Below are positions 5,739 through 45,925 of a DNA stretch of 45,925 nucleotides, piece after piece. The stretch lies in the NCBI GenBank assembly GCA_002788395.1, contig PFRF01000056.1:1-45925 (forward strand). Reading direction: 5' to 3'. Numbering within the stretch: position 1 is the stretch's first letter; the number at the start of each line of letters is the position of its first letter. Origin of the DNA: Candidatus Levybacteria bacterium CG_4_9_14_0_2_um_filter_35_21 (GTDB lineage: Bacteria > Patescibacteriota > Microgenomatia > Levybacterales > UBA12049). Below the pieces are notes generated by a model. It did not search any database. It saw nothing but the letters and a program-made list of their open reading frames with translations, and was not told the DNA's origin. A program made the position numbers and the translations under genes.

Positions 5739-5781
5739 TTAAAGAATTTTTATTTAAGTCATTTCTGCTCTTTGATTATAT

Positions 5782-5807
5782 AGTTCAATGATTCAAATCA
5801 TTGAACT
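5782..5807. promoter_or_regulatory. Palindrome, family A (AGTTCAATGATTCAAATCATTGAACT)
   Basis: Exact reverse complement of 31574-31599 (28 bp including flanking T/A). Confidence 0.65.
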
Positions 5808-5879
5808 ATTAAGTGTCTATTTTCAAAGGCTGTAAAAAAGACAAACTAATCCTATTTTGAGGCTCTGTCTCTATTTTTA

Positions 5880-6452
5880 CTATTTTATCGGGACGGCAAA
5901 AACCAGAAGCCGCATTAAAGAAGTCCCGATAGGAGTACAAGTTTGTAAGATTAGCTTATTTTCCTGATTTTTTTCCAAATATTTAATTTCGTTTGGCCAA
6001 ACGGTTTTTTTATCCATAACTTTATAGTTATACTGTTTTCCTTTATCAAAAATTTTAACAATATCTCCTTTTGTTAATTCCCCCAAACGCAAAAAGATGG
6101 TGTTATATCGAGCTATACGCCATGGTAAATCCGATGAATGTGCAAATATGTAGATTGTTCCGTTTTGAGGCGGAAATGCTGTTCCCTTTGCCTGTGCGAC
6201 TCCTTTTTCCAAAACCGGTCTGTAATCCGCTTCTTTCCAGGGATTAATATCTTTAAAAATAGGTGCTTGAGCATTAATTTTAGGAATTTGAATATAGGTA
6301 CCGTTTTTAATAATATTGTTATCGACTTTAGGAGTAAAAACAAAAAGCATTATATATGGATAATAAATATACAAAAGGAGAAGTGCGGAAAAAAGCATTA
6401 ATAAATTTCCGATATAAAAAGCGAATGGTTTTTTAGGTTTCTTTTGTTTCAT
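5880..6452 (-). CDS. Sortase family transpeptidase
   Basis: N-terminal TM; catalytic-type motifs IYIFAHSS (His), ILQTCTPIGTSLMRLLVFA (Cys, Arg). Confidence 0.85.
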   Translation of the reverse strand: MKQKKPKKPFAFYIGNLLMLFSALLLLYIYYPYIMLFVFTPKVDNNIIKNGTYIQIPKINAQAPIFKDINPWKEADYRPVLEKGVAQAKGTAFPPQNGTIYIFAHSSDLPWRIARYNTIFLRLGELTKGDIVKIFDKGKQYNYKVMDKKTVWPNEIKYLEKNQENKLILQTCTPIGTSLMRLLVFAVPIK

Positions 6453-6494
6453 TGGGTCTTATTATAACGAGGAACTTTGAGGAGTCAAGAAGTA

Positions 6495-7652: not shown

Positions 7653-7675
7653 ATTAGAAGACTTTTAAAATTTAT

Positions 7676-9817: not shown

Positions 9818-9859
9818 TTTAAATTTTTAACTTTGAACTTTTAATTTTTAACTTGTCTC

Positions 9860-9913
9860 AGGGTACAGAGTGCTTCTGTCGAAGTGTTTTAACAAAAAGC
9901 ACTCTGTAACCCT
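9860..9913. other. Long stem-loop in the spacer between two repeat-protein genes
   Basis: AGGGTACAGAGTGCTT ... AAGCACTCTGTAACCCT (16-bp stem, one bulge); no T-run. Confidence 0.6.
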
Positions 9914-9919
9914 AAAAGA

Positions 9920-11164
9920 TTAACCCATGTGCAAGAATGCCCAAAGAGCTGCAAAATTGAATGAAAATTCAACATTTGGCATCTCTGGCCAATCAATACC
10001 CATTAGGTCACCTACTACGTTTACGTTTCCGGAATTATTTACACCTGTATCAACAAGCGCGTCTCCGGTAACGATTGCTGGATCTCCTCCTTCGACACTA
10101 CCGGTGTTTGACTCAACGTCATTTTTACCGGTCTTAGCATCTAGATCTTTAAGATCGTTTCTAAGGTTAGACAAATTTCCCTGACCAACAGCTTGTAAGC
10201 TATTAAGAGTCAAGGTAATAATATTGTCTGCCCTGTCGAAATCGGGCTCTGCTCCGTTTCCGGCAATTTTTGCCAGAACATCCCATGTGCATCCGCAATC
10301 AACATCTGCGTAGTTGAAGTTAACCGCATTATCAATATCGGCTTCGACTGTTGCATTTCCGGTGCCAATGATTACATCGCCTCCTGTATTAAAGTTTGCG
10401 TCATTTTCACCTGTTTCTGCGTCTGCATCAACATTGTTGGTAACGTTTGCTACATTGTTTTGCGAAACGCTGGTAACTTTAGCAAGAGCTGCGGTAATAT
10501 AATTACCGCTTCCCGCGCCGTTTCCAGTTATTACAAATGAAGCAGATGGGTTCGATGCTCCAAGAGCGGATCCTACTTTAGTAGAATTAACATTTGCAGT
10601 AGTTGAAATGTTAGTATCTACCTTAGCGTCTCCGGTTACGATCATTACATCGCCTCCGGTGTTCATATTTGCATCGTTTTCACCTGTTTCTGCGTCTGCA
10701 TCAACATTGTTGGTAACGTTTGCTACATTGTTTTGTCTAACAGCCGTAGTTGTTGTTTGATCAAGTTTTACTCCGTTGTCGGAATATGCTCCGTTTCCGG
10801 AGATTTTGACATCGGTTGAACCTGCTGCGCAACAATCTACTTGTGCTGCGTTGCTGTTAAGCGTATTTACAATGTCCGCTTTAACTGTTGCTTTCCCCGT
10901 GTCAACAACTACAGTTCCTCCGGTATTGAAGTTTGCGTCATTGTCACCTGTTTTTGCGTCTGCATCAACATTGTTGGTAACGTTTGCAGTATTGTTTTGC
11001 GTAACTGTTGTTGTGTTACTTTGAGTAACATTTGCCCAGTTATCAGAACCTGCTCCGTTTCCGGAAATAACCACGTTTGTTTCTGCGAACACTATTGGGG
11101 TTAAAACATTAAGTAAAATTGCTGATGTAGCAATTCCTGTAACTATTCTTCTTTTTAAATTCAT
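9920..11164 (-). CDS. Secreted Asn/Asp-rich repeat protein, four ~90-aa repeats
   Basis: Signal peptide MNLKRRIVTGIATSAILLNVLTPIVFAE; repeats GNGAGSDN/GNGAYSDN/GNGAGSGN/GNGAEPDF with QNNVANVTNNVDADAETGENDANFNTGGDV; no obvious C-terminal anchor. Confidence 0.8.
   Translation of the reverse strand: MNLKRRIVTGIATSAILLNVLTPIVFAETNVVISGNGAGSDNWANVTQSNTTTVTQNNTANVTNNVDADAKTGDNDANFNTGGTVVVDTGKATVKADIVNTLNSNAAQVDCCAAGSTDVKISGNGAYSDNGVKLDQTTTTAVRQNNVANVTNNVDADAETGENDANMNTGGDVMIVTGDAKVDTNISTTANVNSTKVGSALGASNPSASFVITGNGAGSGNYITAALAKVTSVSQNNVANVTNNVDADAETGENDANFNTGGDVIIGTGNATVEADIDNAVNFNYADVDCGCTWDVLAKIAGNGAEPDFDRADNIITLTLNSLQAVGQGNLSNLRNDLKDLDAKTGKNDVESNTGSVEGGDPAIVTGDALVDTGVNNSGNVNVVGDLMGIDWPEMPNVEFSFNFAALWAFLHMG
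10380..11005 (-). repeat. Three near-identical DNA repeat segments, ~270-bp period, inside the 9920 gene
   Basis: tttgcgtcattttcacctgtttctgcgtctgcatcaacattgttggtaacgtttgctacattgttttg recurs near 10397, 10670 and 10936 with few changes. Confidence 0.8.
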
Positions 11165-29286: not shown

Positions 29287-29766
29287 TTATTGTTGCTTTC
29301 CAACAATAACTTGTGCCGGTCTTAATATTCTATCATATAAAGTGTATCCTGCTTTTATCTCTTCTACCACTTTTCCTTCTCCTTGTCCTTGTCCTGAACC
29401 TGCCGAAGGATCTACCTCTGCCACATGCACACATTCCATTGTATTCGGATCAAAATCTTTTCCCACAGTTTCTATTTTTTTAATTCCTTCCTGCCCAAAT
29501 GCGTCTAAAAATGTTTTTATGCTTAGTATTACCCCTTCGTCTTTAGTGTGCTTCTCTGCCAAAATTAGAGAATCAAGAGCCGGAAGAATGCGTAAGAGTA
29601 ATTGCCTATTTGCTAATTTTACCCACTCTATTTTATCTTCCGCAACTCTTTTTTCTAAATTTTGATAATCTGCCAATGTGCGTTTAACCTGGTGTTCAAG
29701 CTCTTCGTTTTTTTTAATTAGCCCCTGGTCTTTATTCTCCTTTTTTTCTTCATTCTTTTTTTTCAT
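29287..29766 (-). CDS. grpE: Nucleotide exchange factor GrpE
   Basis: LADYQNLEKRVAEDK...FDPNTMECVHVAEVD...EEIKAGYTLYDRILRPAQVIVGKQ. Confidence 0.93.
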   Translation of the reverse strand: MKKKNEEKKENKDQGLIKKNEELEHQVKRTLADYQNLEKRVAEDKIEWVKLANRQLLLRILPALDSLILAEKHTKDEGVILSIKTFLDAFGQEGIKKIETVGKDFDPNTMECVHVAEVDPSAGSGQGQGEGKVVEEIKAGYTLYDRILRPAQVIVGKQQ

Positions 29767-29799: not shown

Positions 29800-30531
29800 T
29801 TACCACCCTTTTGCTATTTCCTCTATTAAACCTCCAAAATATCTAACGGTAGGTACTACATTCGTATAATCAAGCCTGGTTGGACCAACAACTCCGATTT
29901 CTCCCGAGAGTCTCATTGGGGTCTGATATCTTGTAAAGACAAATCCATATGGACCTTGAAGTCTCGGACCCAATTCTTCACCGATCAAGACATGAATTTC
30001 TTCATCGTCTAAAACGTGAGAAAAAATATCTTTTATATATTCAAACTCATCGATTACGGAAAAAAGACTTTTAGTAACATCTATATCAAAAAATTCCGGA
30101 ACATCAAATATATTAGCATATCCTGCACAAAAAACATTACCGTCATCTGTTGTGGTAATTGCTAAAGATTTTGTTTTATCAGCCAAATTTTTTGTAAGCT
30201 GCTTCAAAAATATCTGTTCCTTATCTCTTACGTCCCAAACATTCTCCTTCAGCCCAACTTCTTCTGCTACGGACAATTCTTTTTCTTTCATAAGCTGTTT
30301 TACATAAAATTTCATTGCCTGTGAAGTTGGAACCCGTCCTGCAGAAGTATGCTGTTGTTTAAGATAACCAAGTTCTGCTAGCTTAACCATCTCGTTTCGG
30401 ATTGTTGCAGGAGATGCGGAAAGATTGTGCTTTTTTTCCAAGGTTTCCGAGCCAACAGCTTCCGCAGTATTAATGTATTCCTCAATAAGATTTCTTAAAA
30501 TTTCTACTTGTCTTTGTGTTAAATCGTGCAT
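29800..30531 (-). CDS. hrcA: Heat-inducible repressor HrcA (short form)
   Basis: N-terminal winged helix LTQRQVEILRNLIEEYINTAEAVGSETL...SPATIRNEMVKLAELGYLKQQHTSAGRVPT; C-terminal GVVGPTRLDYTNVVPTVRYFGGLIEEIAKGW; first gene of hrcA-grpE-dnaK-dnaJ. Confidence 0.93.
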   Translation of the reverse strand: MHDLTQRQVEILRNLIEEYINTAEAVGSETLEKKHNLSASPATIRNEMVKLAELGYLKQQHTSAGRVPTSQAMKFYVKQLMKEKELSVAEEVGLKENVWDVRDKEQIFLKQLTKNLADKTKSLAITTTDDGNVFCAGYANIFDVPEFFDIDVTKSLFSVIDEFEYIKDIFSHVLDDEEIHVLIGEELGPRLQGPYGFVFTRYQTPMRLSGEIGVVGPTRLDYTNVVPTVRYFGGLIEEIAKGW

Positions 30532-30578
30532 ATTCTTGTAAAGATGAATAATACACCCCGCGGTGCGTCATTAGCAGT

Positions 30579-30607
30579 ATAATAACACGACTGCCAATTC
30601 TTGTCAA
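30579..30607 (-). promoter_or_regulatory. Sigma70-type promoter upstream of hrcA
   Basis: Minus strand TTGACA-17 bp-TATTAT. Confidence 0.75.
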
Positions 30608-30721
30608 GAAGTAAATTTTGATCTACGATGAGAATTTTACATACACGCCTCTGGCGAAAGAGAATTCAATAAAAATAATTATCAGGAAGTAAACTTTCAA
30701 TAATCATGTTAGACTAATTTT

Positions 30722-31054
30722 ATGCGGAAAAAAAGAAAAATTATACCTTTTCTAATTAGTCTTATCTTTTTGGGGATAACTACTTATATTATTGTTAATT
30801 ACCCTCCTACGTTATCATTTTCCATTTTAAATTACAAATTTTCAATTTTTTACATTCTTTTTGTTTCTCTTTTTTTATTTGTAACTTGTTTTGTTGCCTA
30901 TTTTCTTAAAAATTTAAGGCGGGGTTTTTTTACAGCTCTTTTCGTGGCTGGATTTTTATTATTGAATTTTTACAAACTTGGACAACCGATTTTCATAATT
31001 CTTCTTATCACAATCTTCGTAGTTTTAGAGCTTCTCTTTACCAAAAGTAAATAA
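30722..31054 (+). CDS. Small membrane protein
   Basis: 110 aa with about four hydrophobic segments. Confidence 0.5.
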   Translation: MRKKRKIIPFLISLIFLGITTYIIVNYPPTLSFSILNYKFSIFYILFVSLFLFVTCFVAYFLKNLRRGFFTALFVAGFLLLNFYKLGQPIFIILLITIFVVLELLFTKSK

Positions 31055-31089
31055 TTAATTAATAAAAATAAATTATTGACAAATATCGA

Positions 31090-31112
31090 TTCAATGATTC
31101 AAACTATTAAAC
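31090..31112. promoter_or_regulatory. Diverged family A palindrome directly upstream of the TrpR-like gene
   Basis: TTCAATGATTCAAACTATTAAAC against TTCAATGATTCAAATCATTGAAC; ends 4 nt before the ATG. Confidence 0.6.
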
Positions 31113-31116
31113 TATA

Positions 31117-31575
31117 ATGGCAAAAATTTCAAAGCGGATTATCAACAAACACTTAGAGGGTCACATCTTTGAAGTTTTTATAAAAACACTGGCACAAACC
31201 AGTAACCCTGACGAGGTAAAAAATCTTATAGAGGATCTTCTTTCTCCTACTGAAAAAGTGATGCTTGTTAAAAGACTTGCAATCGCGGTTCTATTATCAA
31301 AGGGCTATACTTATAGCCAAATTGATAGCTCCCTAAAAGTTTCTCGTCCCACAATTATGACTGTTTCTTACTGGCTCAAAAATGGAAGAAGTGGTTATAG
31401 AAAAGCTGTAGAAAAAATTTTAAATAACCAGAAAAAGCAGACATTAATTGACGACATTGAGGAAATTGTATTACAGATAACTCCGCCAAAAATACACGAC
31501 AGCATTGCGTTTAAAAAGAAACAAAAACAAGGGAAAGAACTTTTTAAAAAAAAATTTAAAAAGAATTCTCTTTAG
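31117..31575 (+). CDS. TrpR-like/YerC-YecD family regulator (paralogue 1)
   Basis: LIEDLLSPTEKVMLVKRLAIAVLLSKGYTYSQIDSSLKVSRPTIMTVSYWLKNGRSGYRKAVEKIL matches the TrpR-superfamily HTH pattern. Confidence 0.8.
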   Translation: MAKISKRIINKHLEGHIFEVFIKTLAQTSNPDEVKNLIEDLLSPTEKVMLVKRLAIAVLLSKGYTYSQIDSSLKVSRPTIMTVSYWLKNGRSGYRKAVEKILNNQKKQTLIDDIEEIVLQITPPKIHDSIAFKKKQKQGKELFKKKFKKNSL

Positions 31576-31599
31576 TTCAATGATTTGAATCATTGAACT
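31574..31599. promoter_or_regulatory. Family A palindrome overlapping the stop codon of the TrpR-like gene
   Basis: AGTTCAATGATTTGAATCATTGAACT. Confidence 0.65.
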
Positions 31600-31694
31600 A
31601 ATAGTGAAGTTATTATAAATAATAGTAGAAAAAAGTTGTTGTTAAGATATCCGGCTTCGTTGTTTCATCCCTCCCTTTCTGTTAAAATTAGGCT

Positions 31695-33107
31695 ATGAAA
31701 AAATTTTATATAACAACTGCTATTGATTACGTTAACGACACTATTCACATAGGGCATGCTTTCCAAAAAATTGCAGCTGACAGCTTAGCTCGTTATTATC
31801 GGTTAAAAATTGGAGATGAAAACGTTTTTTTTCTAACCGGAACCGATGAATATGGGCAAAAAACCGAAAAGGCAGCCAAAAGCGCAGGCATTACTCCAAC
31901 TGAATTGGTAAAAAAGATTTCGGATTCAGATCAGAGGCAACAAGATAGTTTAAATATTTCTTACAACCGTTTTATTAGAACAACCGATCCTGATCATATG
32001 AAAGTTGCCCAAAAAATTTGGAAAAAAGTAGATACGTCAGGGGATATTTATCTGGGAGAATATAGCGGGCTTTATTGCGGGGGGTGCGAAGCATATTATA
32101 CCGAAGATGATTTAATAAACGGTCAGTGCCCATTTCATCCGAATCTAAAAATACAAAAAGTTACCGAAGAAAATTACTTTTTCCGCTGGAGTAAATATAA
32201 AGATTTTTTAATTAACTATATTAAAGATAATCCTAATTTTATTTTTCCCAAACACCGTGCCAACGAAATGCTGGAGTTTGCCAAAAACATTAAAGACATT
32301 CCAATCTCCCGCAAGCATTTTAAATGGGGTATTCCTGTTCCGGAGCACCCTGAGCAAGTTATTTATGTTTGGTTTGACGCTTTAATAAACTATATTTCGG
32401 GTATTGGATACTTGGAAAATAAAAAATTATTTGAAAAATTCTGGCCGGCAGATATCCACATTTTAGGCAAGGATAACTTGCGTTGGCACTCTCTTTTATG
32501 GACAGCAATGTTAAAATCCTCCGGAATTGATCTTCCAAAAACAATTATTATTAACGGATTTTTAAATATTAACGGGCAAAAAATTAGCAAATCTTTAGGT
32601 AATGTTATTAAACCAACCGATTGGATAGAAAAATACGGCGCCGATGCAGTCCGTTATTATCTTTTAAGATACACTGTTTTAACCGAAGATGGTGATATTT
32701 CCGAAAAAAAATTAATCCAAGCTTACAACTCCGACTTGGCAAATGGCTTGGGAAATTTATGCTCAAGAGTTGCAAAGCTTGCGGAAAAAGTAGGATTGGA
32801 GATGGAAAATGGGGAGAAAAAATTAGATCCTAAAGTAGAAAAAGCAATCGAAGATTTTCAACTTCATGAAGCTTTAAAAATCATTTGGAGAAAAATAAGT
32901 GAAATAGATAAAAAATTAAATCAGGAAGAACCTTGGAAAATTTTAGACGAAAAAATACTTAAAGAAAAATTAATTAACTACTCAAAGGGAATTGTAGAAG
33001 CAGTTGTTAATCTAAAACCATTTCTCCCTGAAACTGCTAAAAAAATACTAAATCAATATGATGGAAAAATTACTTCCCAACCTCCTTTATTTCCAAGAAT
33101 TAAATAA
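31695..33107 (+). CDS. metG: Methionyl-tRNA synthetase
   Basis: YITTAIDYVNDTIHIGHAFQ; FLTGTDEYGQK; KDNLRWHSLLW; GQKISKSLGNVI. Confidence 0.95.
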   Translation: MKKFYITTAIDYVNDTIHIGHAFQKIAADSLARYYRLKIGDENVFFLTGTDEYGQKTEKAAKSAGITPTELVKKISDSDQRQQDSLNISYNRFIRTTDPDHMKVAQKIWKKVDTSGDIYLGEYSGLYCGGCEAYYTEDDLINGQCPFHPNLKIQKVTEENYFFRWSKYKDFLINYIKDNPNFIFPKHRANEMLEFAKNIKDIPISRKHFKWGIPVPEHPEQVIYVWFDALINYISGIGYLENKKLFEKFWPADIHILGKDNLRWHSLLWTAMLKSSGIDLPKTIIINGFLNINGQKISKSLGNVIKPTDWIEKYGADAVRYYLLRYTVLTEDGDISEKKLIQAYNSDLANGLGNLCSRVAKLAEKVGLEMENGEKKLDPKVEKAIEDFQLHEALKIIWRKISEIDKKLNQEEPWKILDEKILKEKLINYSKGIVEAVVNLKPFLPETAKKILNQYDGKITSQPPLFPRIK

Positions 33108-33111
33108 GTTT

Positions 33112-33906
33112 ATGATAGATGCACATTGTCATTTAAATTTTCAGACCTTTGTAAGTGATGTTGAGGAAGTTATAGGAAGAGCAAAAGATAAAGATATAAA
33201 TATTATTAATGTTGGTACCGCTCTCGACTCTAGTAAAACCGCAATTGAGCTTGCCGAAAAATATCCTGGGCTTTATGCAACAGTCGGAATTCATCCTCAT
33301 CATGCAGATAAATTAGAACTCAACTGGGAAGTTGAATTTGAAAAATTGGCAAAACATCCAAAAGTTGTTGCAATCGGAGAAACAGGAATTGACTATTTCC
33401 GTTACGAGTCAAATGGCATTACCAACAAAAATTTACAAAGAAAACTTTTTGCAAAACAAATAAAAATTGCACATAGATTAGATCTTCCTTTAATGATTCA
33501 TAACCGTCAGGCTGGAGAAGATATTTTGAAAGTTTTAAATGAAAATAAACCTCTCTTAAAAAATCTTCCCGGACTTTTTCACTGTTTTTCCGGAGACGTT
33601 GAGTTTTTAAAAAAAGTCTTAAACCTTGGTTTTTATGTTGGTTTTGATGGAAATATAACCTATCCCGGAATTGCCAAAGGAGAAACAACTGCTCTTTTTG
33701 ATCTAATAAAATATGCTCCGATAGATAAAATAATTTCCGAAACAGATTCGCCATATCTAACTCCAATTCCCCACCGTGGAGAAAGAAACGAGCCTTCTTT
33801 TGTAAAGTTTGTTGTGGAATTTATTGCCGAAGTTAAAAATCTTACGAAAAAAGAAGTAGCAGAAAAAACAAGCAAAAATGCTACAAATCTGTTTAGGCTT
33901 TCTTAA
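33112..33906 (+). CDS. tatD: TatD family metal-dependent hydrolase/DNase
   Basis: MIDAHCHLNF; ATVGIHPHHAD; AIGETGIDYFR; IHNRQAGEDIL; ETDSPYLTP. Start at 33112 preferred over 33058. Confidence 0.9.
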   Translation: MIDAHCHLNFQTFVSDVEEVIGRAKDKDINIINVGTALDSSKTAIELAEKYPGLYATVGIHPHHADKLELNWEVEFEKLAKHPKVVAIGETGIDYFRYESNGITNKNLQRKLFAKQIKIAHRLDLPLMIHNRQAGEDILKVLNENKPLLKNLPGLFHCFSGDVEFLKKVLNLGFYVGFDGNITYPGIAKGETTALFDLIKYAPIDKIISETDSPYLTPIPHRGERNEPSFVKFVVEFIAEVKNLTKKEVAEKTSKNATNLFRLS

Positions 33907-35121
33907 AAACACTAAGATACCATTTAATATAATTAGGAAGCCATTTAAGTAATTTAAAATTTGACTTACCCTCTTCACGATCTCTCCAGACTGTTGGAAT
34001 TTCAGTAATTTTATATCCTAATTTATGTGCCTTCAACAATATCTCGAGTGAATACTCAAAACCGCTGGTACTTTCAATTTTTATATTTTTAAAAATTTCT
34101 TTTTTATACATCTTATAAGCGTTCGTTGGATCAAGAGTAGAAATTTTAAATATATAATGAAGTGTAAATCCTGCCGTTTTTGACAAAAAAGTTTTTAAAC
34201 GAGGTCCTCCAATTTTTCTTCCCTTTGGCATGTAACGAGAAGCACATATTACATCAAATCCTTCTTGTGATAATTTATACATTTGGTCAATTTGCGTAAT
34301 ATCATCCGATAAGTCTGCCATTAAAACCACAATTACTTCTCCTTTTGATTTTTTAAAACCTGTTCTAATGGCATTCATTACTCCTCTACCATTTCTTGAA
34401 TTATTTTTAATTAGGAAAATGTTTTTTAATTTATTGTTTTTAATGTAATTTGTAGCAATTATTACGGTTGGATCATTATCTAAATCGTATATTATGAGGA
34501 TTTCGCAAGACGTTTTTACTTCCTTCCCAACCTTTGCGCGCTCTTCTCCTATTCCAACACAATTGAATTGACGAACAATCGTATAGGGTAACTTATATTG
34601 TTCCCAAGCACCCTTAGCAAAATATTCACAGGCAAATTTTTGGAATCCATATGTCGACAAGGGTGGAGGTATTTTGGAGACCTCATCTTCTTTTGTCGGG
34701 AATTTATCCGTCAATTCATAAACCATACTCGAAGAAATTACGGTTATTTTTTTCAATTTTTTATTTAAAAATGCATCAATTGCGACGTCAAAAGTAGAAG
34801 CAATAATACGCTCGTTTTCTGCAATAAGATCATAAGCAAATTCATGAAAATAACTAATTCCACCGATTTTTGCCGCACCCGCAATTAGATGATCGCAATC
34901 TTTTAAGAGCTCTTTTAATAATTTTGTATTTTTTATGTCTCCCTTTACAAGGGAATAACGAGGATTTTTATCATAGCTCTTTTCGATTAACCCATATTTG
35001 GAAAAATTATCTATACCAATAACCGTATTTCCCCTCTTAAGTAATTCTTCTACAACATATCCGCCTATAAAGCCTGCAGATCCCGTAACGAGTATTTTTT
35101 GCCTGATTTTCCTTTATTCAT
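33893..35121 (-). pseudogene. Chimeric ORF: NAD-dependent epimerase N-terminus fused to an N-terminally truncated GT2 glycosyltransferase
   Basis: Frame open 33893-35113: KILVTGSAGFIGGYVVEELLKRGNTVIGID...SSSMVYELTDKFPTKE...STYGFQKFACEYF...NCVGIGEERA runs into EILIIYDLDNDPT...GRGVMNAIRTGFKKSKGEVIVVLMADLSDD. ATG at 35121 joins only across an A6 run. Confidence 0.7.
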
Positions 35122-35258
35122 AGCCCCTTACTAAATATTGATTTTAAGATTGGTATAGTCTAAGATCTTTATGTCAATAAATCAAGCTATAAAGGTAGTC
35201 TTTTAGACATAAGCTTATTGAAAAATCATCAGAAAACGCTCATACTTTATTTTATACA

Positions 35259-36752
35259 ATGACCAGTTTTTTTCAAAAAATTTTTTCTCGTTATCCCGTA
35301 AAAACAACCAGAGTTTTAGAAATAATTCCGGGATTTTTGTCGTGGACACTTATCCTTTTCCCTGTCTGGGGATCACTTCTTATTCCCTACACTGTTGCCT
35401 ATTTTATTCTTTTTTATGACGTTTATTGGTTTTACAAGTCCTTTTCCCTAGTAATTAACTCTTATATTGCTACTAATAAAATAAAAGAGGCAGAACAAAT
35501 AAATTGGCTTAAAAAAGCAGTTGAATTTGAAAACTTTAATAAAATTTCACACGTAGTTGTAATTCCGAATTATAGAGAAACCTTAAATAAACTTAGAGAA
35601 ACTCTAGCTGCAATTTCCGAGCAGACTTTCCCAACAGAAAAAATTTTTATAGTATTGGGAATGGAAGAACGAGAGAAAAATATTAAGGAAAAAGCAAATA
35701 TTTTAATAAATGAGTTTAAAGATAAATTCGGCGATGTTATCGCAACTTATCATCCGGATATCGAGGGCGAAGTTAAAGGCAAATCTTCCAATGAGGCATA
35801 CGCGGGAAAATACGCTTACAAAAAATTAGTTGAGGAAAAGGTTATAGAAATTGATTATGCAACGATTTCTTCCGTTGATGCAGATTCAATTTTTGATAAA
35901 CAATATTTTGCCTACTTAGCTTATTTATTCTTAAAAGACGACAAACCTTACAATAAATTTTGGCAATCTGCCGGAGTTTTTTATAATAACTTTTGGAAAG
36001 TTCCCGCTCCTGTAAGAGTAATTTCTTTTTTTGGTAGTCTTTGGAGAATAGCTGTTTTGGTTCAGAAGGACCGTTTAGTTGCGCATTCCACATATTCACT
36101 CTCTTTTAGAATGCTTCATGAAATCGGCTATTGGGACGTGGACGTAATACCTGAAGATTATAGAGTATTCTATAAAGCATTTTATATGCGTAAAGGGGAA
36201 CTTTGGGTGGAGCCAATTTTTTTAAAGACTTCTATGGATTCTCCGCTTGCCTCGACTTACCTGAAAACTTTAAAGACAAAATATGAACAAGAAGAACGCT
36301 GGTCTTGGGGAGTATCGGATAATCCCGTTTTTATAAAATGGTGGCTGACCGTACCTGATGTCCCTTTTGTCAGAAAAACAATGATGCTTTACCATGTCCT
36401 ACTGGATCACTTACTTTGGCCCGTTAACTGGTTTATTATTACTATTGCTGCAAACGTAATGCCCTTTATAAATCCTATTTTTTCCAGAACTGCTCTTGGA
36501 TACAATCTTCCCAAACTTGCCGGATTTATTCTAACTTTCTGTTTATTTGCTCTTCTTGCTATGATTGTAATAGATTTTAAAAATAGACCAAAAAAATATT
36601 CTGCTTCTATGACAAGACAATTTTTATTTCCGCTTGAATTTATGCTTTTACCCATTGCCGGATTTTTTCTCTCCACACTACCTGCAATAATTTCCCATAC
36701 TAAACTTATGCTTGGAAAAAGGTTAGAATATAAGGTAACAGAAAAAATATGA
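35259..36752 (+). CDS. Membrane-bound glycosyltransferase family 2-like protein
   Basis: SHVVVIPNYRETLNKLRETLAAISEQ; ISSVDADSIFD; IPEDYRVFYKAFY; C-terminal TMs. Confidence 0.75.
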   Translation: MTSFFQKIFSRYPVKTTRVLEIIPGFLSWTLILFPVWGSLLIPYTVAYFILFYDVYWFYKSFSLVINSYIATNKIKEAEQINWLKKAVEFENFNKISHVVVIPNYRETLNKLRETLAAISEQTFPTEKIFIVLGMEEREKNIKEKANILINEFKDKFGDVIATYHPDIEGEVKGKSSNEAYAGKYAYKKLVEEKVIEIDYATISSVDADSIFDKQYFAYLAYLFLKDDKPYNKFWQSAGVFYNNFWKVPAPVRVISFFGSLWRIAVLVQKDRLVAHSTYSLSFRMLHEIGYWDVDVIPEDYRVFYKAFYMRKGELWVEPIFLKTSMDSPLASTYLKTLKTKYEQEERWSWGVSDNPVFIKWWLTVPDVPFVRKTMMLYHVLLDHLLWPVNWFIITIAANVMPFINPIFSRTALGYNLPKLAGFILTFCLFALLAMIVIDFKNRPKKYSASMTRQFLFPLEFMLLPIAGFFLSTLPAIISHTKLMLGKRLEYKVTEKI

Positions 36753-38221
36753 GAGTATTAAAAAAACTTGAAAAAAAATTTGGGACATGGTTTTTAATTT
36801 TTGTTTCGTTTATCTTTTTTGTATTTCGTCTCCCATCTCTTTTTGAACCATATTGGTATGGAGACGAAGGCATTTATCAAACACTTGGCATTGGCATAAA
36901 TCACGGCAGACTTTTATATAGAGATATTTTCGACAATAAACCTCCTCTTCTTTATCTTCTTTACAGCTTTTTTAGTTCCGATCAGTTCATGGTTAGATTG
37001 GCAAACCTTTTTTTTGGAATTCTGGCGGTAATTATTTTCTTTATTTTAGTAAATAAACTCTTTAAAAGTAAACTATCCGTATATTCATCTACCGGATTCT
37101 TTGCTTTTTTACTTGCCATTCCTTTACTTGAGGGGAATATCGCAAATGCCGAAAATTTTATGCTTTTCCCTTTAATTCTGGCCGGGTATTTAATTTTTTC
37201 TGCCTGTCAAAAATTAAATTATAAAGTTTTTTTTGTTTCAGGACTTTTAGTTGGAATTGCATTTCTTTTTAAAATCGTTGCTATTTTTGATTTTGCAGCA
37301 TTTTTTGTTTTTTTACTTTTTTCGGATATTAATTTTAGATTTTCCAAATTAATAAACAAAAAATATCTTATTTGTCTTTTAGACAAAGCTTTCCTTTTTA
37401 TTCTTGCCTTTTTAGTTCCCATTTCTCTGACTATTTTATTTTTTTATATTTCAGGTGGATTTTCCTACTTTTTAAAAGCAACTCTTTTTTCTAATGTTGG
37501 ATATGTTGGATATGGCAATCGTTTTATAATTCCACAGGGACTTTTGATCCTAAAGCTTTTAATACTCGCTTTTTTTTCTTTTTTTGTTTTTGCAAAAAGA
37601 AAAAGTTTAGAACTGGAGGGGGTATTTATTTTTCTTTGGCTTGGATTTTCTTTATTTAATGCTTTCTTCTCTCAACGACCTTATACACATTATCTTTTAG
37701 TTTTACTACCAAGTTTTTCTCTTTTGATCGGATTTATTTTTACTAATAAAAAATGGCGGAATTCTTCTACTGTTCTTCTTTTGCTAATTGCCTACCTTGT
37801 ATTTAATAATTTTTATCTTTTTAATAAAGTCGTACCTTACTATGAAAACTTTCTAAATTTTGCTGATGGAAAAAAGAGCTTAAGCGCATATCAGGGATTC
37901 TTTGATAGAAGAACCCCAATAGATTATCAGATTGCAGATTATCTTAGACCAAGATTAAAAGAAAATGACAATGTTTTTATTTGGGGTAATAACGCTCAAG
38001 TTTATAAATTATTAGAAAAATTACCACCCGGAAGATATGCTGCTGCATATCATATCTCTAACTATAAAGATGGCATGGATGATACAGCCGGAGGGCTTGC
38101 GAAAAATAAGCCTAAATTTATTATTTTAATGCCAAATGTAAAAGCATATCCTTTTTTACTTTCGGACTTTAAGCAGAGTATTATACTTTACGACGTCTCT
38201 ATCTATGAAAAGATTTTTTAA
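36749..38221 (+). CDS. GT39/ArnT/PMT-like polytopic glycosyltransferase
   Basis: FRLPSLFEPYWYGDEGIYQTLGIGINHGRLLYRDIFDNKPPLLYLLY plus multiple TMs; ATGA overlap with the previous gene. Confidence 0.75.
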   Translation: MRVLKKLEKKFGTWFLIFVSFIFFVFRLPSLFEPYWYGDEGIYQTLGIGINHGRLLYRDIFDNKPPLLYLLYSFFSSDQFMVRLANLFFGILAVIIFFILVNKLFKSKLSVYSSTGFFAFLLAIPLLEGNIANAENFMLFPLILAGYLIFSACQKLNYKVFFVSGLLVGIAFLFKIVAIFDFAAFFVFLLFSDINFRFSKLINKKYLICLLDKAFLFILAFLVPISLTILFFYISGGFSYFLKATLFSNVGYVGYGNRFIIPQGLLILKLLILAFFSFFVFAKRKSLELEGVFIFLWLGFSLFNAFFSQRPYTHYLLVLLPSFSLLIGFIFTNKKWRNSSTVLLLLIAYLVFNNFYLFNKVVPYYENFLNFADGKKSLSAYQGFFDRRTPIDYQIADYLRPRLKENDNVFIWGNNAQVYKLLEKLPPGRYAAAYHISNYKDGMDDTAGGLAKNKPKFIILMPNVKAYPFLLSDFKQSIILYDVSIYEKIF

Positions 38222-38558
38222 AGACATAGTGTCTGATAATATAACACAAAAGGGTTTTTCTGCTTGCTTTATAATTATTTTATTATCGTTTATATATGCT
38301 GTTTTTTATTTTTACAGCTTGCCACCACTTCTTCCCCTTTTTAATCAACTGCCTTGGGGAGAGCAAAGACTTGTGAATACAACAGGAATTTTTATTCCTC
38401 CAATTATAGCTTTTTTAATTTTAACAATAAATTTAATTTTTTCCTCTTTGGTTTATAAAAAAGCCCCCTTGCTTTCCAGAATACTGGCGGTTACAAGTCT
38501 TTTAATATCCGTGCTTACTTTTCTTTTTGTAATTAGAACTGTTCAGGCTGTTTTATAA
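38205..38558 (+). CDS. Small membrane protein, unknown function
   Basis: 117 aa, about three TMs, overlaps the upstream gene end. Confidence 0.55.
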   Translation: MKRFFKDIVSDNITQKGFSACFIIILLSFIYAVFYFYSLPPLLPLFNQLPWGEQRLVNTTGIFIPPIIAFLILTINLIFSSLVYKKAPLLSRILAVTSLLISVLTFLFVIRTVQAVL

Positions 38559-38559
38559 A

Positions 38560-39627
38560 ATGTTTAATTTCTCCACAACTATAATTTTGCCATTTTTTAT
38601 TGCCTTTATATTGACCGTAATTGCTACTCCAATTTCTTTAATTTTTATTAAAAAAGCAGGTCTTATCGATGATCCAAAAAAACGTCATCATCCCGCTACA
38701 CTTCATACTAGACCAATTCCAAGAAGTGGTGGAATTCCTTTTTTTCTAGGTATTGCAATAACGGGGATTATTTTTTTACCTGTAGAAAAAATAACCGTTG
38801 CTTTATTTATCGCCGGACTTATTTCTCTAACTATCGGTGTTTTAGATGATAAGTATGATATTTCACCGTACTTTAGATTTTTAATAAATATTATTTCTGC
38901 TTCTATTGTTGTTTACGCCGGCGCAAATATTCCTTTTATTACAAATCCTTTCGGAGGAATTCTTTATTTAAATGCATTAAAATTGTCTTTTCTTCCGGTC
39001 GGAGTTCCTTTCTTCTTTTCTTATGCGATTGCCATACTTTGGATCGTCTGGATTATGAATATGCTAAATTGGAGCAAAGGCGTAGACGGACAAATGCCCG
39101 GAATCATTGCAATTTCTGCCATTGTAATCGGCATTTTAAGTTTACGTTTCCCCGTAATTGATCATTATAGCTTAATAAGTGCAAAGCTGTCTTTTATGAT
39201 CGCAGGTGCAGCAATTGGTTTCTTACTTTTTAATTTTTATCCCGCTAAGATTTTTCCCGGATATGGAGCAACCTCTATATATCTTTTATTAAGCGTTGTT
39301 TCTATTTTAGCAAGTACAAAACTTGCAACGGCAATTTTGGTAATGGGTGTTCCAATCGTAGATGGAATTTTTACCATAACCAGAAGAGTTCTTTCCGGAA
39401 AATCTCCCTTCTGGCACGATAAAAAACACTTGCATCATCTCTTATTGAAAAGGGGTTATGGACACAGAAAAATAGCATTGTTTTATTGGTTAATTTCTGC
39501 TATATTAGGGTCGCTTGCCCTAGTTCTATCTAGTAAGGGCAAATTGTTTGCTATTGTTATGGTTGCAATAGTTGTAAGTGGAATAATATTGTTCCTACAA
39601 TTAACAATAGAGGATCCAGATGATTAG
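38560..39627 (+). CDS. WecA/MraY-family polyprenyl-phosphate sugar-1-phosphate transferase
   Basis: LIDDPKKRHHPATLHTRPIPRSGGIPFFLG; GVLDDKYDISPYFRF; MNMLNWSKGVDGQMPG; HDKKHLHHLLLKRGYGHRK. Confidence 0.9.
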   Translation: MFNFSTTIILPFFIAFILTVIATPISLIFIKKAGLIDDPKKRHHPATLHTRPIPRSGGIPFFLGIAITGIIFLPVEKITVALFIAGLISLTIGVLDDKYDISPYFRFLINIISASIVVYAGANIPFITNPFGGILYLNALKLSFLPVGVPFFFSYAIAILWIVWIMNMLNWSKGVDGQMPGIIAISAIVIGILSLRFPVIDHYSLISAKLSFMIAGAAIGFLLFNFYPAKIFPGYGATSIYLLLSVVSILASTKLATAILVMGVPIVDGIFTITRRVLSGKSPFWHDKKHLHHLLLKRGYGHRKIALFYWLISAILGSLALVLSSKGKLFAIVMVAIVVSGIILFLQLTIEDPDD

Positions 39628-40564
39628 ATTTGCTTTCGAGGTCTTTAGACTACTTCGTCCCAGGCAATGGATAAAGAATTTCGCACTCTTTGCTGCAATT
39701 CTTTTTGCGGGAGAATTGTTTGATCAGCTAATTTTTGAAAAAGTTTTTGTAGCATTTTTTGTTTTTTGCGGCTTATCTTCGGCAACCTACATAGTTAATG
39801 ATCTATTTGATATTAAAAAAGACAGGATGCATCCGTTTAAACGATTTAGACCGTTGGCGGGCAATAAAATTTCCGTTAGTGCTGCCATTCTAACTGCTGC
39901 TATTTTAATTTTTATTTCACTCTTTGTCAGCACAACTATAACTCCGGCATTTTTTATAATTTGTCTGGTCTATTTGTCCATCCAATTTCTTTATTCGCTT
40001 TTCCTTAAGTCACTTGCTGTTGTTGATATTCTAGCAATTGCAACAGGATATATACTTAGAGTATACGCAGGAGAATTTGCCAGCGGATTTCATATCTCGG
40101 TTTGGCTTTTATTAACAACAATCTCTATTTCTTTATTTCTTGCAATTGGAAAAAGGCGCTCGGAGCTTACCCTTTTGTCTGCAAACAAAAAGAACCTTAT
40201 TCAAGAAACCAGAGAGTCACTGTCTCGTTATTCCGAACGATTACTGGATGTTTATGCATCAATCTTTGCAACTTCAACTTTTATTACCTATTCTCTTTTT
40301 ACGTTTTTGGAAAACCCAAGAGGGATTAAGATTAGCCTTGGAGTTTTGATGCCAGAATTTCTACCAACTTTTTTTCAAAGAAAATGGCTCATGATAACTA
40401 TATTACCCGTTGTTTACGGGCTTATGAGATACCTTCAGGACATTTATGAAAAAAACGAAGGAGAAAGCCCTGAAAGAGTACTTCTATCTGATAGACCACT
40501 CCTTATAACAGTTGTTTTATGGGTAATAATGGTTATTCTTATAATTTATTTTATCGGTCCTTAA
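39620..40564 (+). CDS. UbiA-superfamily prenyltransferase, decaprenyl-phosphate phosphoribosyltransferase-like
   Basis: LLRPRQWIKNFALFAAILFAG; YIVNDLFDIKKDRMHPFKRFRPLAG; AIGKRRSEL. Confidence 0.8.
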   Translation: MIRFAFEVFRLLRPRQWIKNFALFAAILFAGELFDQLIFEKVFVAFFVFCGLSSATYIVNDLFDIKKDRMHPFKRFRPLAGNKISVSAAILTAAILIFISLFVSTTITPAFFIICLVYLSIQFLYSLFLKSLAVVDILAIATGYILRVYAGEFASGFHISVWLLLTTISISLFLAIGKRRSELTLLSANKKNLIQETRESLSRYSERLLDVYASIFATSTFITYSLFTFLENPRGIKISLGVLMPEFLPTFFQRKWLMITILPVVYGLMRYLQDIYEKNEGESPERVLLSDRPLLITVVLWVIMVILIIYFIGP

Positions 40565-40568
40565 TCAA

Positions 40569-40955
40569 CTAATCTTCGAGAAAAATAATTATTAATTTTA
40601 TATCTCTATTGTTGGTTTTACTCCAATAGCGTTGGATACCATATTTAGGAATATTTTCTTTATAATGAGTAAATGAATGATAGCTTTTTATCCCATCCTC
40701 TATTGTTTCTCCGCCTGAACGCACATTCTCAACCCCTTCTGTTTCTAACATAGTTAGAACATCCGGATAGTGATGAATATAGAGCACATTTGTGATTGTT
40801 TTTTCTCCAGTATCTTCATTTACAAAATGAATAGTATCTCCTGCTTTCATTTTGTGATATAGAGTAGTATGTCGAAAAACCCGACCTTCTACTTTTTTCT
40901 TGCCATTTTTAATGGCCTTCCACGACCTCTCGGGAAGATGTAATAGATAATGCAT
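40569..40955 (-). CDS. ASCH-domain-like protein
   Basis: ERSWKAIKNGKKKVEGRVF...KMKAGDTIHFVNEDTGEKTITNVLYIHHY. Confidence 0.6.
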   Translation of the reverse strand: MHYLLHLPERSWKAIKNGKKKVEGRVFRHTTLYHKMKAGDTIHFVNEDTGEKTITNVLYIHHYPDVLTMLETEGVENVRSGGETIEDGIKSYHSFTHYKENIPKYGIQRYWSKTNNRDIKLIIIFLED

Positions 40956-40989
40956 GTAGATATTGTATCAAGAGGTCCGAATCCTCTAC

Positions 40990-42037
40990 TGGGTTGTATG
41001 CGTCACGCACTTTTCGGACTTTTGGATTGTATAAAGTTCATAGGCGACATGTATTTAAGTGATGCATGTGGCCTCTGGTAGTTGTACCAGTATAGATACT
41101 TTGTAAGCTCTTTTGCAAATGCTTTGTGATCATAGTAAATTTCATCATTTCTTAAGATAAATTCTTCCTGTATGGTTCTATTAAATCTCTCTATGAAAGC
41201 ATTGATCTTTGGCATTCTGGGATAGATAAATTGGTGCTTAATTCCTTGTTCTTCCAGATACATGTGGAATGACTTGAGAAACTCCGACCCATTGTCTGTC
41301 TGTACTGTATGAATGGAGGTTGATGTTAATTGCTGAAATTGCTTGAATACTTCTCTTGCTGTTGCTGATGAGAGGTTTTGTACATAAACAAATACTTCTC
41401 GTAATTAATATATACGACAATTGAATCCATTTGGATAAACCCGGGAGTTGTTACTCTTGGTGATTTACGTGTTCTTAGCTTTTTGAACTTGTTTGCCTGT
41501 TTTTTTGCATATACTTTCTTCTCAAATGTCAGATGTCTTCTCTTAATAACCTTCCCGATCGTACTTGTCGCAAGGGTTTTAATATCAAGTTCTTTTGCAT
41601 ATGCATCAACGAATGGTTTGAGCATGCTTTTACCAATGTTTCCATGCTCTTTTCTCATCTCCTTAATGAAGGCGATAATTCTCCAGTCTGTTTCCATCCT
41701 TCTTACATGAAGAGGTCTGGTTTGGTGAGGTACTAAACTAATGATTCGTCTCCCGGATCTCTCATAAAGGATCTTCCAATCATAGAAGGTGCTTCTTTTT
41801 ACCTTGAATGCATCAAGAGTTCCCCGCAAACCATATTTGTAGTAGTGGTTGATTACATGAATACGAAATCCTGCTACGTCTGATATCTCTAGAGCTAATC
41901 CATCCTGCATCATTTTCATCAGGATATGATAACCCTTTTTAGAGTATTTCGGTCGAAAGTATCTTACCCGCTTAAAATCACTCGGCATACATTTCTTTTC
42001 CTTAATCGTCCGAAATGTATCGTGACTTATTCATGGG
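40990..42037 (-). mobile_element. Second decayed IS (integrase-core transposase) with imperfect terminal inverted repeats
   Basis: Left TGGGTTGTATGCGTCACGCACTTTTCGGAC (40990-41019); right-end reverse complement CCCATGAATAAGTCACGATACATTTCGGAC (42008-42037). Confidence 0.75.
41003..41988 (-). pseudogene. Integrase-core (DDE) transposase, frameshifted
   Basis: N-terminal part MPSDFKRVRYFRPKYSKKGYH...TTPGFIQMDSIVVYINYEKY; C-terminal part in another frame VQNLSSATAREVFKQFQQLTSTSIHTVQTDNGSEFLKSFHMYLEEQGIKHQFIYPRMPKINAFIERFNRTIQEEF. Confidence 0.85.
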
Positions 42038-42040
42038 TCG

Positions 42041-42080
42041 CGAGGACTATCCTTTTTTCACGTATTGGGAGCTGATCTAA
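42041..42080 (-). repeat. 40-bp remnant duplicate of the 3' end of the 42832 gene
   Basis: 33/40 identity to 42826-42865, all seven differences transitions; encodes ISSQYVKKG* against ISSQYAKKE*. Confidence 0.7.
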
Positions 42081-42187
42081 TTACTCGCTAATCGACTTTA
42101 TTTTACAGATTATTAAGTTTACCGTCTGGTAAAAATATTCCGGAAAAAACATTTAGATAGAACAACATTCAGTAATCCATTAACCAC

Positions 42188-42221
42188 TAACACTCTAATG
42201 ATACGTATCATTAGAGTGTTA
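42188..42221. promoter_or_regulatory. Perfect 34-bp palindrome, family B, downstream of TrpR-like paralogue 2
   Basis: TAACACTCTAATGATACGTATCATTAGAGTGTTA equals its own reverse complement. Confidence 0.75.
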
Positions 42222-42266
42222 AAAATAATTTTTAATTGAACTAATAACTATAAACAAACTTAAAAA

Positions 42267-42710
42267 TTAGAAAGGTTTTTTGTTTTTTCTTTTTTTATAC
42301 TCGTGCTCTTTCCGCCAATACGACCAATCGTGTCCTTTTAAAGGAGGAACATCTGTTAATTTCGTTTCTATCTTTTGCCAGAATTCATTCATTTTTTCAT
42401 CACGCAGAATCTTTTCAACGATTTTTCTGTAGCCTTTGTCCGAGTATTTTAAATTTAAACTAACATTGGAAATTGTACTTGGGGTAACTCTGAGCATTTG
42501 TCTTATTGATGGATATGAATAACCCTTTGCTAAAAGTACAGCAATGGAAATTCTTTTTGCCAACATTATTTTTTCTACCGGAGAAAGAAACTCTTCAAGA
42601 AAATTCTCAATATCCTCGGAATCTCTTAAAGCAGAAATAGTATTTTTAAACACTTCAAATATTCTTTTTTCTACATCTTTATGGACCGGATAACGAGAGA
42701 CTTGAGCCAT
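42267..42710 (-). CDS. TrpR-like/YerC-YecD family regulator (paralogue 2)
   Basis: FLEEFLSPVEKIMLAKRISIAVLLAKGYSYPSIRQMLRVTPSTISNVSLNLKYSDKGYRKIVEKIL, collinear with the 31117 protein. Confidence 0.8.
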   Translation of the reverse strand: MAQVSRYPVHKDVEKRIFEVFKNTISALRDSEDIENFLEEFLSPVEKIMLAKRISIAVLLAKGYSYPSIRQMLRVTPSTISNVSLNLKYSDKGYRKIVEKILRDEKMNEFWQKIETKLTDVPPLKGHDWSYWRKEHEYKKRKNKKPF

Positions 42711-42713
42711 ATC

Positions 42714-42739
42714 ACTATGATGATAAGTATCATTAGAGT
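42714..42739. promoter_or_regulatory. Family B palindrome directly upstream of TrpR-like paralogue 2
   Basis: ACTATGATGATAAGTATCATTAGAGT against ACTCTAATGATACGTATCATTAGAGT, 23/26; 3 nt separate it from the start codon. Confidence 0.7.
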
Positions 42740-42831
42740 TGTCAAGATAAATAAATTAATTTTGCATTTATGATTTCTAAAACCTTTGAGGCATTGTTTA
42801 TAACTCCAGTTTTTAGGGGTCTGTCCGAGGA

Positions 42832-43677
42832 CTATTCTTTTTTTGCGTATTGAGAACTAATCCAACCTATTTTGCCATCTAACAGCTTAATCTGAAACCA
42901 ATTTTCTTCTTCCGAAACAAGTTCATAACTTTCCCCAGGATTTACGAGCGCTACTTGAGCCGATGATATTGAATTGCTCTCTCTAACTCTTAAAAATCCT
43001 GTTGGAGTAGTCAAAATGGTAATTTTTTTTACAGATGGTGTTGGAGTTAGTGTAATACTTGGGGAAGTTGGTATAGCAGCAGCACTGGCACCAACATCCT
43101 GATTTATGCTTAGAAAAATTATACCTTCAAGTTTGTATCCAACAATTGTTCTAATTCTAATTGCTTTTTCTTTATATCCGTCTTTAGAAAGCTTAACTTC
43201 GTGATCGGATTCCGTAATATTTTTTAATAAAAGTGGACTTGTTCCGGAAAGATTGTTGTCTAAGGAAACTTTAGCTTTATCCGGAAAAGAAACAATTAAT
43301 ACTTGAGCATCTTTCTTATCGTCAATCGGAATAAGATTAATTATACTTCCATGCGAAAGACCTCCTTGTCCAAAAGATCTATCGACAACGGTTAATGTTC
43401 CGGAAGAAATAGTAATCTTACTTTCAAAATAAGAAAAATCTCCCTGAAACGGAACCAACTTAATTGTGTATTCTCCGGTTGTAATCATGTTATTTTGATC
43501 ACACTTACAAAGCGGCGTTTCTCCAATTAATTTTCCATTCAGATAGACTTTGCTTTTTGGCACAGAGGTAACTTGTAGACCGCCTTTATTTGAAGTTTTG
43601 TTTAAAATAATTGTAACCGTTATAAAAATTAATATCGCTATAAGAGGGGGAACAACAATAAAAAGAATTTTTTTCAT
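42832..43677 (-). CDS. Membrane-anchored PEGA-repeat protein with C-terminal SH3b domain
   Basis: TM; PEGA-type GGLQVTSVPKSKVYLNGKLIGETPL and VLIVSFPDKAKVSLDNNLSGTSPLLLKN; SH3b GFLRVRESNSISSAQVALVNPGESYELVSEEENWFQIKLLDGKIGWISSQYAKKE. Confidence 0.8.
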   Translation of the reverse strand: MKKILFIVVPPLIAILIFITVTIILNKTSNKGGLQVTSVPKSKVYLNGKLIGETPLCKCDQNNMITTGEYTIKLVPFQGDFSYFESKITISSGTLTVVDRSFGQGGLSHGSIINLIPIDDKKDAQVLIVSFPDKAKVSLDNNLSGTSPLLLKNITESDHEVKLSKDGYKEKAIRIRTIVGYKLEGIIFLSINQDVGASAAAIPTSPSITLTPTPSVKKITILTTPTGFLRVRESNSISSAQVALVNPGESYELVSEEENWFQIKLLDGKIGWISSQYAKKE

Positions 43678-43709
43678 GTTTAGTAATTATATTACACTAA
43701 AAACTCTGT

Positions 43710-43738
43710 GACAATAAAAAACCGCGTCTTACGCGGTA
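43710..43738 (-). terminator. Rho-independent terminator after groEL
   Basis: Minus strand ACCGCGT-AAG-ACGCGGTTTTTTATTGT. Confidence 0.85.
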
Positions 43739-43769
43739 AACTTTCAACTTTGAACTTTCAACTTTGAAC

Positions 43770-45437
<1,668 letters not shown>

Positions 45438-45463
45438 TTAATTGAAAATTAAAAATCCGATTA

Positions 45464-45760
45464 TTAATTAATAATCGCAAGTATATCTTTTTGCTCTATT
45501 ATTGTCCATTCTTCGTTACCAACTTTAACTTCATTTCCACCCCATTTTTTATACATAACTTTTTGTCCTACTTTTATAATCATTGGAATTTTTTCTCCTT
45601 TTGGGGTAACATCACCGGGACCAATTGCCATTACTTCTCCCGCCTGTGATTCTTTCTTAGCAGTATCCGGAAGGATAATACCACTTACAGTTTTTGCTTC
45701 TGCTTCAAGCGGTTTGACTAAAACATTTCCGAAAAGTGGTTGAATTTTTATATTTTTCAT
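45464..45760 (-). CDS. groES: Co-chaperonin GroES
   Basis: MKNIKIQPLFGNVLVKPLEAEAKTVSGIILPDTAKKESQAGEVMAIGPG. Start at 45760 preferred: the ORF-track start at 45814 would place the promoter and operator inside the gene. Confidence 0.95.
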   Translation of the reverse strand: MKNIKIQPLFGNVLVKPLEAEAKTVSGIILPDTAKKESQAGEVMAIGPGDVTPKGEKIPMIIKVGQKVMYKKWGGNEVKVGNEEWTIIEQKDILAIIN

Positions 45761-45774
45761 AAATTGGGCAAAAA

Positions 45775-45801
45775 ATATCACTTGTAAGAAGTGAGTGCTA
45801 A
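45775..45801 (-). promoter_or_regulatory. CIRCE-like HrcA operator upstream of groES
   Basis: Minus strand TTAGCACTC-ACTTCTTAC-AAGTGATAT: left arm identical to CIRCE consensus, N9 spacer, right arm 6/9. Confidence 0.8.
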
Positions 45802-45802
45802 G

Positions 45803-45831
45803 TTTATACAACAAAAATCTTTAAGTGTCAA
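45803..45831 (-). promoter_or_regulatory. Sigma70-type promoter of groES-groEL (TTGACA-17-TATAAA)
   Basis: Minus strand TTGACACTTAAAGATTTTTGTTGTATAAA. Confidence 0.85.
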
Positions 45832-45925
45832 GAACCTATAGTTGAGTCCTTTAACACTTGACACGTGAGTCTCAGTTACTATACGATAATTTCAGTGCAC
45901 TAATATGTCCTTATTTTCGGGCAAA

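Follow-up and report, generated by a model that had tools for sequence, protein, structure and literature searches.

A TrpR-like gene bracketed by matched palindromes in Patescibacteria: a candidate repeat-plus-protein cassette

Why should a gene for a small TrpR-like protein be enclosed by two copies of one palindrome, the first immediately ahead of its start codon and the second behind its stop codon? This question is raised by one gene in the window, i.e. the whole 45,925-nt stretch of DNA analysed here, and by a second TrpR-like gene in the same window. Our reading, held with a probability of roughly 0.6, is that the TrpR-like gene and its two palindromes constitute a self-contained repeat-plus-protein cassette similar to REP/RAYT, in which a repressor replaces the nuclease. 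The features concerned are as follows.

42267-42710, minus strand: TrpR-like gene, paralogue 2 (ORF, ATG at 42710, 147 aa)
Protein of paralogue 2: HTH at residues 66-89, recognition helix at residues 77-89, basic C-terminal helix at residues 129-143
42713-42738, no strand: upstream palindrome of paralogue 2 (putative operator), 10/13 pairs, 3 nt before the ATG
42188-42221, no strand: downstream palindrome of paralogue 2, 45 nt beyond the stop, perfect over 34 bp, unlike a terminator
31117-31575, plus strand: TrpR-like gene, paralogue 1 (ORF, 152 aa, Pfam)
31088-31113, no strand: upstream palindrome of paralogue 1, degenerate, 7/13 pairs
31572-31601, no strand: downstream palindrome of paralogue 1, overlapping the stop codon, perfect save for the central 2 nt
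3724-3743, no strand: solo copy of palindrome 1, intergenic
5785-5804, no strand: solo copy of palindrome 1, between convergent genes

The layout of paralogue 2 given in a preliminary description of this DNA was recovered almost to the nucleotide. The perfect 34-bp palindrome, claimed at about 46 bp past the stop, begins 45 nt past it and consists of two 17-nt arms (42188-42204 and 42205-42221), which are 100% complementary and have no spacer. The copy ahead of the start, ACTCTAATGATACTTATCATCATAGT, lies at the claimed distance and shows the claimed identity of 23/26 to the downstream copy; over a 41-nt alignment the two copies are 80% identical. With up to three mismatches, the core of palindrome 2 occurred twice in the window (0.01 expected) and nowhere else in the 898-kb genome, hence there is no solo copy, and a reversed control pattern gave no match. 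When the downstream palindrome was folded as single-stranded DNA, a z of -8.4 was obtained that no shuffle matched. Chance palindromes were ruled out by the shuffles and the reversed-pattern controls. The same layout with other arms, which had been claimed for paralogue 1, was also found, and the recognition helices of the two proteins differ (KVSRPTIMTVSYWLK in paralogue 1 vs RVTPSTISNVSLNLK in paralogue 2). Palindrome 1 has six copies in the genome at up to three mismatches, two flanking the gene and four solo; a seventh, asymmetric match was set aside as noise, the control pattern having also given one.

The palindromes might be transcription terminators, or RNA hairpins located at gene ends by chance, and a perfect palindrome after a stop codon would indeed form a strong hairpin. 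However, the stretch at 42188-42221 is AT-rich, lacks a T-run and was not called as a terminator, and a matched copy stands before the start with arms that are specific to the locus; this is the least probable of the accounts considered here. No Rfam match was obtained within 30000-45925 of the window.

The protein of paralogue 2 matched Pfam Trp_repressor (PF01371; 6.6e-13, 49 bits against a cut-off of 27), whereas it scored below the curated cut-offs for TrpR (33.9 vs 42.2 bits) and YerC/YecD (19.6 vs 67.25 bits). Its AlphaFold2 model was all-helical with a mean pLDDT of 79, and the top solved structures found by Foldseek were 3kor, 3frw, and 3g1c (putative TrpR/HisR), followed by E. coli TrpR. 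The protein thus has a TrpR fold with an HTH. A Y1/HUH domain was absent, the profile search having returned Trp_repressor/HTH families only, and no catalytic domain (transposase, recombinase, or nuclease) was detected by profile search, AlphaFold2 model, or Foldseek.

Residues were related to those of TrpR by our own alignment. Among 89 bracketed homologues, R53 and T79, equivalent to Arg54 and Thr81 of TrpR, were invariant or nearly so, whereas residues 77, 78, 81, and 82 (Ile79, Ala80, Thr83, and Arg84 equivalents) were highly variable. Judged by Arg54 and Arg84 of E. coli TrpR, a tryptophan corepressor pocket is unlikely in these proteins, because the Arg84 equivalent is an Arg in only 20 of the 89. 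No trp or his operon was seen among the neighbours and solo-site genes examined, which offer a partial look at the regulon. Near or beside some more distant TrpR-like genes there is a tRNA-Trp gene (L024 501-572, L063 2772-2843, and L064 2815-2886), and this branch may therefore be truly tryptophan-related.

Subsequently, bracketing was examined across the family. Since a loose consensus is common to the flanks of all family members, which invalidates pairing between members, neighbouring genes were used as the control, with the same windows and the same score as for the TrpR-like loci. Matched palindromes bracketed 86 of 139 related genes in Patescibacteria vs one of 377 neighbouring genes. 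That single control gene is most likely an AAA_33 kinase beside a TrpR-like gene, because a wider scan found this kinase bracketed with the same score. In the core subfamily (profile scores of at least 150) the bracketing rate reached 80%. Family-wide, the end of the upstream 26-mer lies at a median of 6 nt from the start codon, and the downstream palindrome begins at a median of 4 nt from the stop. A matched pair was missing at several homologues (e.g. L006, L009, L015, and L018). Bracketing by matched palindromes is a family trait, and the arms are specific to each locus. The preliminary description had named two findings that would tell against its proposal of paralogue-operator co-divergence, palindromes absent around homologues and identical palindromes around both paralogues; neither was encountered, as most homologues have palindromes and those of the paralogues differ.

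Relatives of the TrpR-like gene were present in 37 of 60 genomes of relatives and in 217 of 374 genomes of the class, patchily and in up to 10 copies per genome. Among the named carriers are Levyibacteriota, Gottesmanbacteria, Roizmanbacteria, Curtissbacteria, Daviesbacteria, Woesebacteria, Shapirobacteria, and some Parcubacteria. A viral or plasmid origin was set aside: neither IMG/VR, at the sensitivity used, nor the PLSDB plasmids contained a relative, and PHROG gave only weak matches. Likewise, anti-phage defence was dropped as PADLOC gave no match for the TrpR-like proteins, and tRNA-targeted insertion as the window contains no tRNA and tRNAs lie near few loci. A literature search returned no paper that treats TrpR-like genes together with palindromes in Patescibacteria.

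If the protein reads its own palindrome, the two should change together, as had been proposed for the paralogues and their operators. The homologues and palindromes of the 89 bracketed loci were compared as the preliminary description had suggested. After removal of overall protein divergence, the 9-residue window that best predicted the divergence of operator half-sites was the recognition helix, and it came first in all four strata (all pairs and pairs of >35, >45, and >55% identity) with r of 0.30-0.41 against a median of 0.03-0.06, the locus pairs not being independent. In the >55% stratum, windows around residues 56-70 were nearly as good. A stricter test with 28 disjoint sister pairs gave the same sign without significance (partial rho 0.18, p 0.36). 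Mutual information, which is confounded by phylogeny, placed recognition-helix residues in its leading pairs (I80 and base 3 of the half-site). Co-divergence of regulator and operator is thus supported, since operator divergence tracks the divergence of the recognition helix (residues 75-87) better than that of other stretches of the protein; the two paralogues may form orthogonal modules, as had been proposed.

What the upstream copy might do is indicated by a predicted promoter.

42717-42745, minus strand: predicted sigma-70 promoter, TTGACA-17-CATCAT, straddling the upstream palindrome

The predicted start site is at about 42710, i.e. at the ATG, which begins seven bases beyond CATCAT. When at least 9/12 matches were required for a call, a promoter was found over the upstream palindrome at 28 of 89 loci, compared with 4 of 89 when a control position lying 70 nt upstream was scored, and the predicted leader had a median of 3 nt family-wide. 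These predictions support the earlier suggestion of a very short or leaderless transcript. The upstream copy is likely positioned to repress this transcript, because it overlaps the predicted promoter. At the downstream palindromes of the 89 loci, no enrichment of the first promoter hexamer was observed on either side; therefore, another role is needed for the downstream copy. The earlier treatment of both palindromes as operators fits the upstream copy better than the downstream one.

An ordinary autoregulator of the HisR/TrpR type with a small regulon, whose palindrome pair may loop over the gene and whose solo palindromes are target operators, would account for much of this. HisR/YerC and TrpR bind palindromic operators of ~20 bp with lineage-specific sequence and are often autoregulated (PMC9413887). 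The present family resembles them (PF01371) in fold, in the position of the DNA-contact helix, and in a palindromic, lineage-specific operator over its own promoter, which is predicted here. On the other hand, its members exceed them by about 50 aa and end in a basic C-terminal tail, and the family adds a second palindrome behind the stop codon, solo copies, passenger genes, and up to 10 paralogues per genome.

The solo copies bear most directly on this alternative. Two palindrome families were scanned in 12 genomes with cognate genes, and 34 + 23 = 57 sites were found, while the reversed-pattern control gave none in any genome. By our count, 24 sites flank TrpR-like genes and 31 are solo copies; the remaining 2 mark the outer limits of passenger brackets. 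Each genome has 1-10 sites, all symmetric and without a GTAG/CGTC tag. Solo copies are tied to the gene: in 20 genomes without a strong homologue there were only two weak matches to the first pattern, one of them in cysS of G007. Solo-site genes were named by sequence inspection, and zwf, mvk, and a methyltransferase also by PDB relatives. Some sites occupy tight spacers between housekeeping genes (gatA/gatB, pyrD/pyrF, purE, hisS, and ahead of rdgB and tsaE in two genomes each). Several solo sites precede a start codon by 3-30 nt, and further ones are found between convergent genes or at 3' ends. Intragenic sites with the frame kept were found in zwf and lysS (two each, at matching places), mvk, and the methyltransferase; those of zwf and lysS are at the same place in two genera.

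Sites shortly before start codons, and the repeated occurrences at rdgB and tsaE, would fit an autoregulator with a small regulon, which is the nearest rival and a possible explanation, above all for the sites before start codons. However, it does not readily explain sites inside the four coding genes, between convergent genes, or at 3' ends, downstream copies without a promoter signature, or passenger genes bracketed on both sides, and the targets have no obvious common pathway. Plain autoregulation suits the upstream copy and falls short for the solo copies and bracketed passengers, which point to a repeat-element or cassette role; as a full account we consider it rather unlikely. The few copies per genome and the conserved places within zwf and lysS would also suit chromosome-organising or maintenance sites of a small parS/Noc-type system. 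Against that, presence is patchy, there are up to ten paralogues, specificity changes fast, and passengers are bracketed, making such a system very improbable.

Some solo sites may preserve traces of their arrival. In 20 of 30 relatives gatA adjoins gatB directly, but in G393 the two are separated by about 50 nt of additional DNA that surrounds the palindrome; by majority polarity this is an insertion. For the palindrome in the lysS linker, an insertion is plausible from sequence comparison. At mvk an insertion was not supported: relative to relatives, the perfect site is an ungapped replacement, and simple insertion therefore does not account for all sites.

The same palindromes also bracket genes adjoining the TrpR-like gene, namely a methyltransferase (L147), an Exo_endo_phos phosphatase/nuclease fold (L115), an AAA_33 kinase (L102/L230), and a 258-aa gene of no assigned family (L101). 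A DNA_alkylation (AlkD-like) passenger at L093 has a weaker bracket, and at L216 a NUDIX gene separates the TrpR-like gene from a palindrome. The L101 and L120 loci share synteny and their TrpR-like proteins are 94% identical, yet the extra bracketed gene is present only in L101. Within the window, the solo copies of palindrome 1 at 3724-5804 enclose genes for a secreted CAP-like protein of 244 aa and a 198-aa repeat protein, and this stretch may be another bracketed passenger unit.

Similar cassettes are found in unrelated flanks: L088 and L170 have 82% identical gene DNA and both palindromes in common, and no similarity was detected between their outer flanks. Among 19 pairs whose proteins are at least 70% identical, 9 have no neighbour gene in common and 10 do; movement and vertical inheritance thus both appear to occur, and same-place pairs (L101/L120, L154/L156, and L150/L153) represent vertical inheritance. 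Mobility of the cassette is thereby indirectly supported from sequence comparison. No transposase, recombinase, or nuclease was consistently linked to the TrpR-like gene at the loci examined, and no exact empty site for the whole cassette was found.

These observations could also mean that the palindromes are sites of an unlinked recombination or transposition enzyme, the TrpR-like gene being merely its commonest passenger, which regulates the enzyme or protects the sites. The TrpR-like protein has no catalytic domain and other genes are bracketed too, as this would require. Yet the palindrome sequence tracks the recognition helix of the TrpR-like protein, and genomes without the gene have hardly any of the palindromes; therefore, the linked protein is probably what reads them, and the unlinked enzyme is improbable. 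Integron attC sites and pdif modules are short recognition sites that bracket single genes and are served by a tyrosine recombinase. The present loci share the single bracketed genes and arrays such as palindrome-kinase-palindrome-TrpR-like-palindrome, whereas their sites are symmetric and correspond to the TrpR-like protein, and the loci examined showed no linked tyrosine recombinase.

RAYT is a HUH nuclease, and REP occurs at >100 sites per genome, with a GTAG/CGTC tag and in REPIN pairs. The REP/RAYT (TnpA-REP) system, the subject of PMC2817692 and PMC3116915, comprises a palindrome-flanked gene with scattered extragenic palindromes, co-divergence of repeat and protein, and patchy distribution. 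The TrpR-like loci agree in having two cognate palindromes around the gene and additional copies elsewhere in the genome (the latter not for palindrome 2), in cognate palindromes within tight extragenic spaces, in co-divergence, and in patchy spread. They differ in a repressor fold instead of the HUH nuclease, in 1-10 sites per genome instead of >100, in lacking the tag, and in symmetric palindromes instead of REPIN pairs. By analogy, the cassette would work like REP/RAYT; it is not a member because the HUH nuclease is absent.

In the cassette that we favour, the TrpR-fold protein, probably as a dimer, would bind its own palindrome through the fast-changing recognition helix, and binding at the upstream copy, over the promoter of the nearly leaderless transcript, would repress the gene; from the sequences, such binding and repression are likely. 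The palindrome would also be the outer mark of the cassette, with the second copy closing the 3' end. Further copies bracket passenger genes, and solo copies lie between or inside unrelated genes of genomes with the cognate gene. We infer that movement would proceed by some recombination that uses the palindromes; a host recombinase may be responsible, or homologous recombination. A bolder form, to which we give slightly less than even odds, is a selfish element in which a TrpR-family protein without its own transposase owns and spreads a private palindrome that serves as operator, cassette ends, and passenger docking site, each new paralogue evolving its own specificity. If the cassette reading is true, repeat-plus-protein partnerships like REP/RAYT need no nuclease partner, and strongly reduced genomes have a route to gain accessory genes. 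The 89 bracketed loci are a large natural repressor-operator set for reading the code between TrpR recognition helix and operator bases; should autoregulation be all, they would still provide a clean collection of lineage-private regulator/operator pairs whose transcripts are leaderless.

Several minor observations were made along the window. A 40-bp direct repeat, 83% identical (42041-42080 and 42826-42865), flanks the whole paralogue 2 unit; its right copy is the 3' end of a PEGA/SH3 gene (42832-43677) and its left copy is a remnant beside transposase fragments. It could stem from an insertion that duplicated the gene end, or be what is left of another SH3 gene. At 41003-41988 and 2457-2990 there are integrase-core (rve) transposase fragments that seem to be broken copies, and one of them directly adjoins the paralogue 2 unit. 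A metG-tatD-glycosyltransferase block is common to 31117-38221 of the window and 194-8443 of L110, and TrpR-like genes of different subgroups occur at different junctions near metG (also in L036 and L225/L100); the surroundings of metG are possibly a hot spot for these genes. An epimerase fragment and a glycosyltransferase family 2 domain are encoded by one ORF at 33893-34756, either a fusion or a decayed gene, and 5063-11164 holds a cluster of related secreted proteins in which GNGADS-type motifs recur. A PSAGSGQ-type stretch is present in both GrpE (29287-29766) and GroEL (43770-45434) and seems to be a further short interspersed repeat within coding genes; comparable repeats of the HPE/HSE type were seen in lysS and gatB of relatives.
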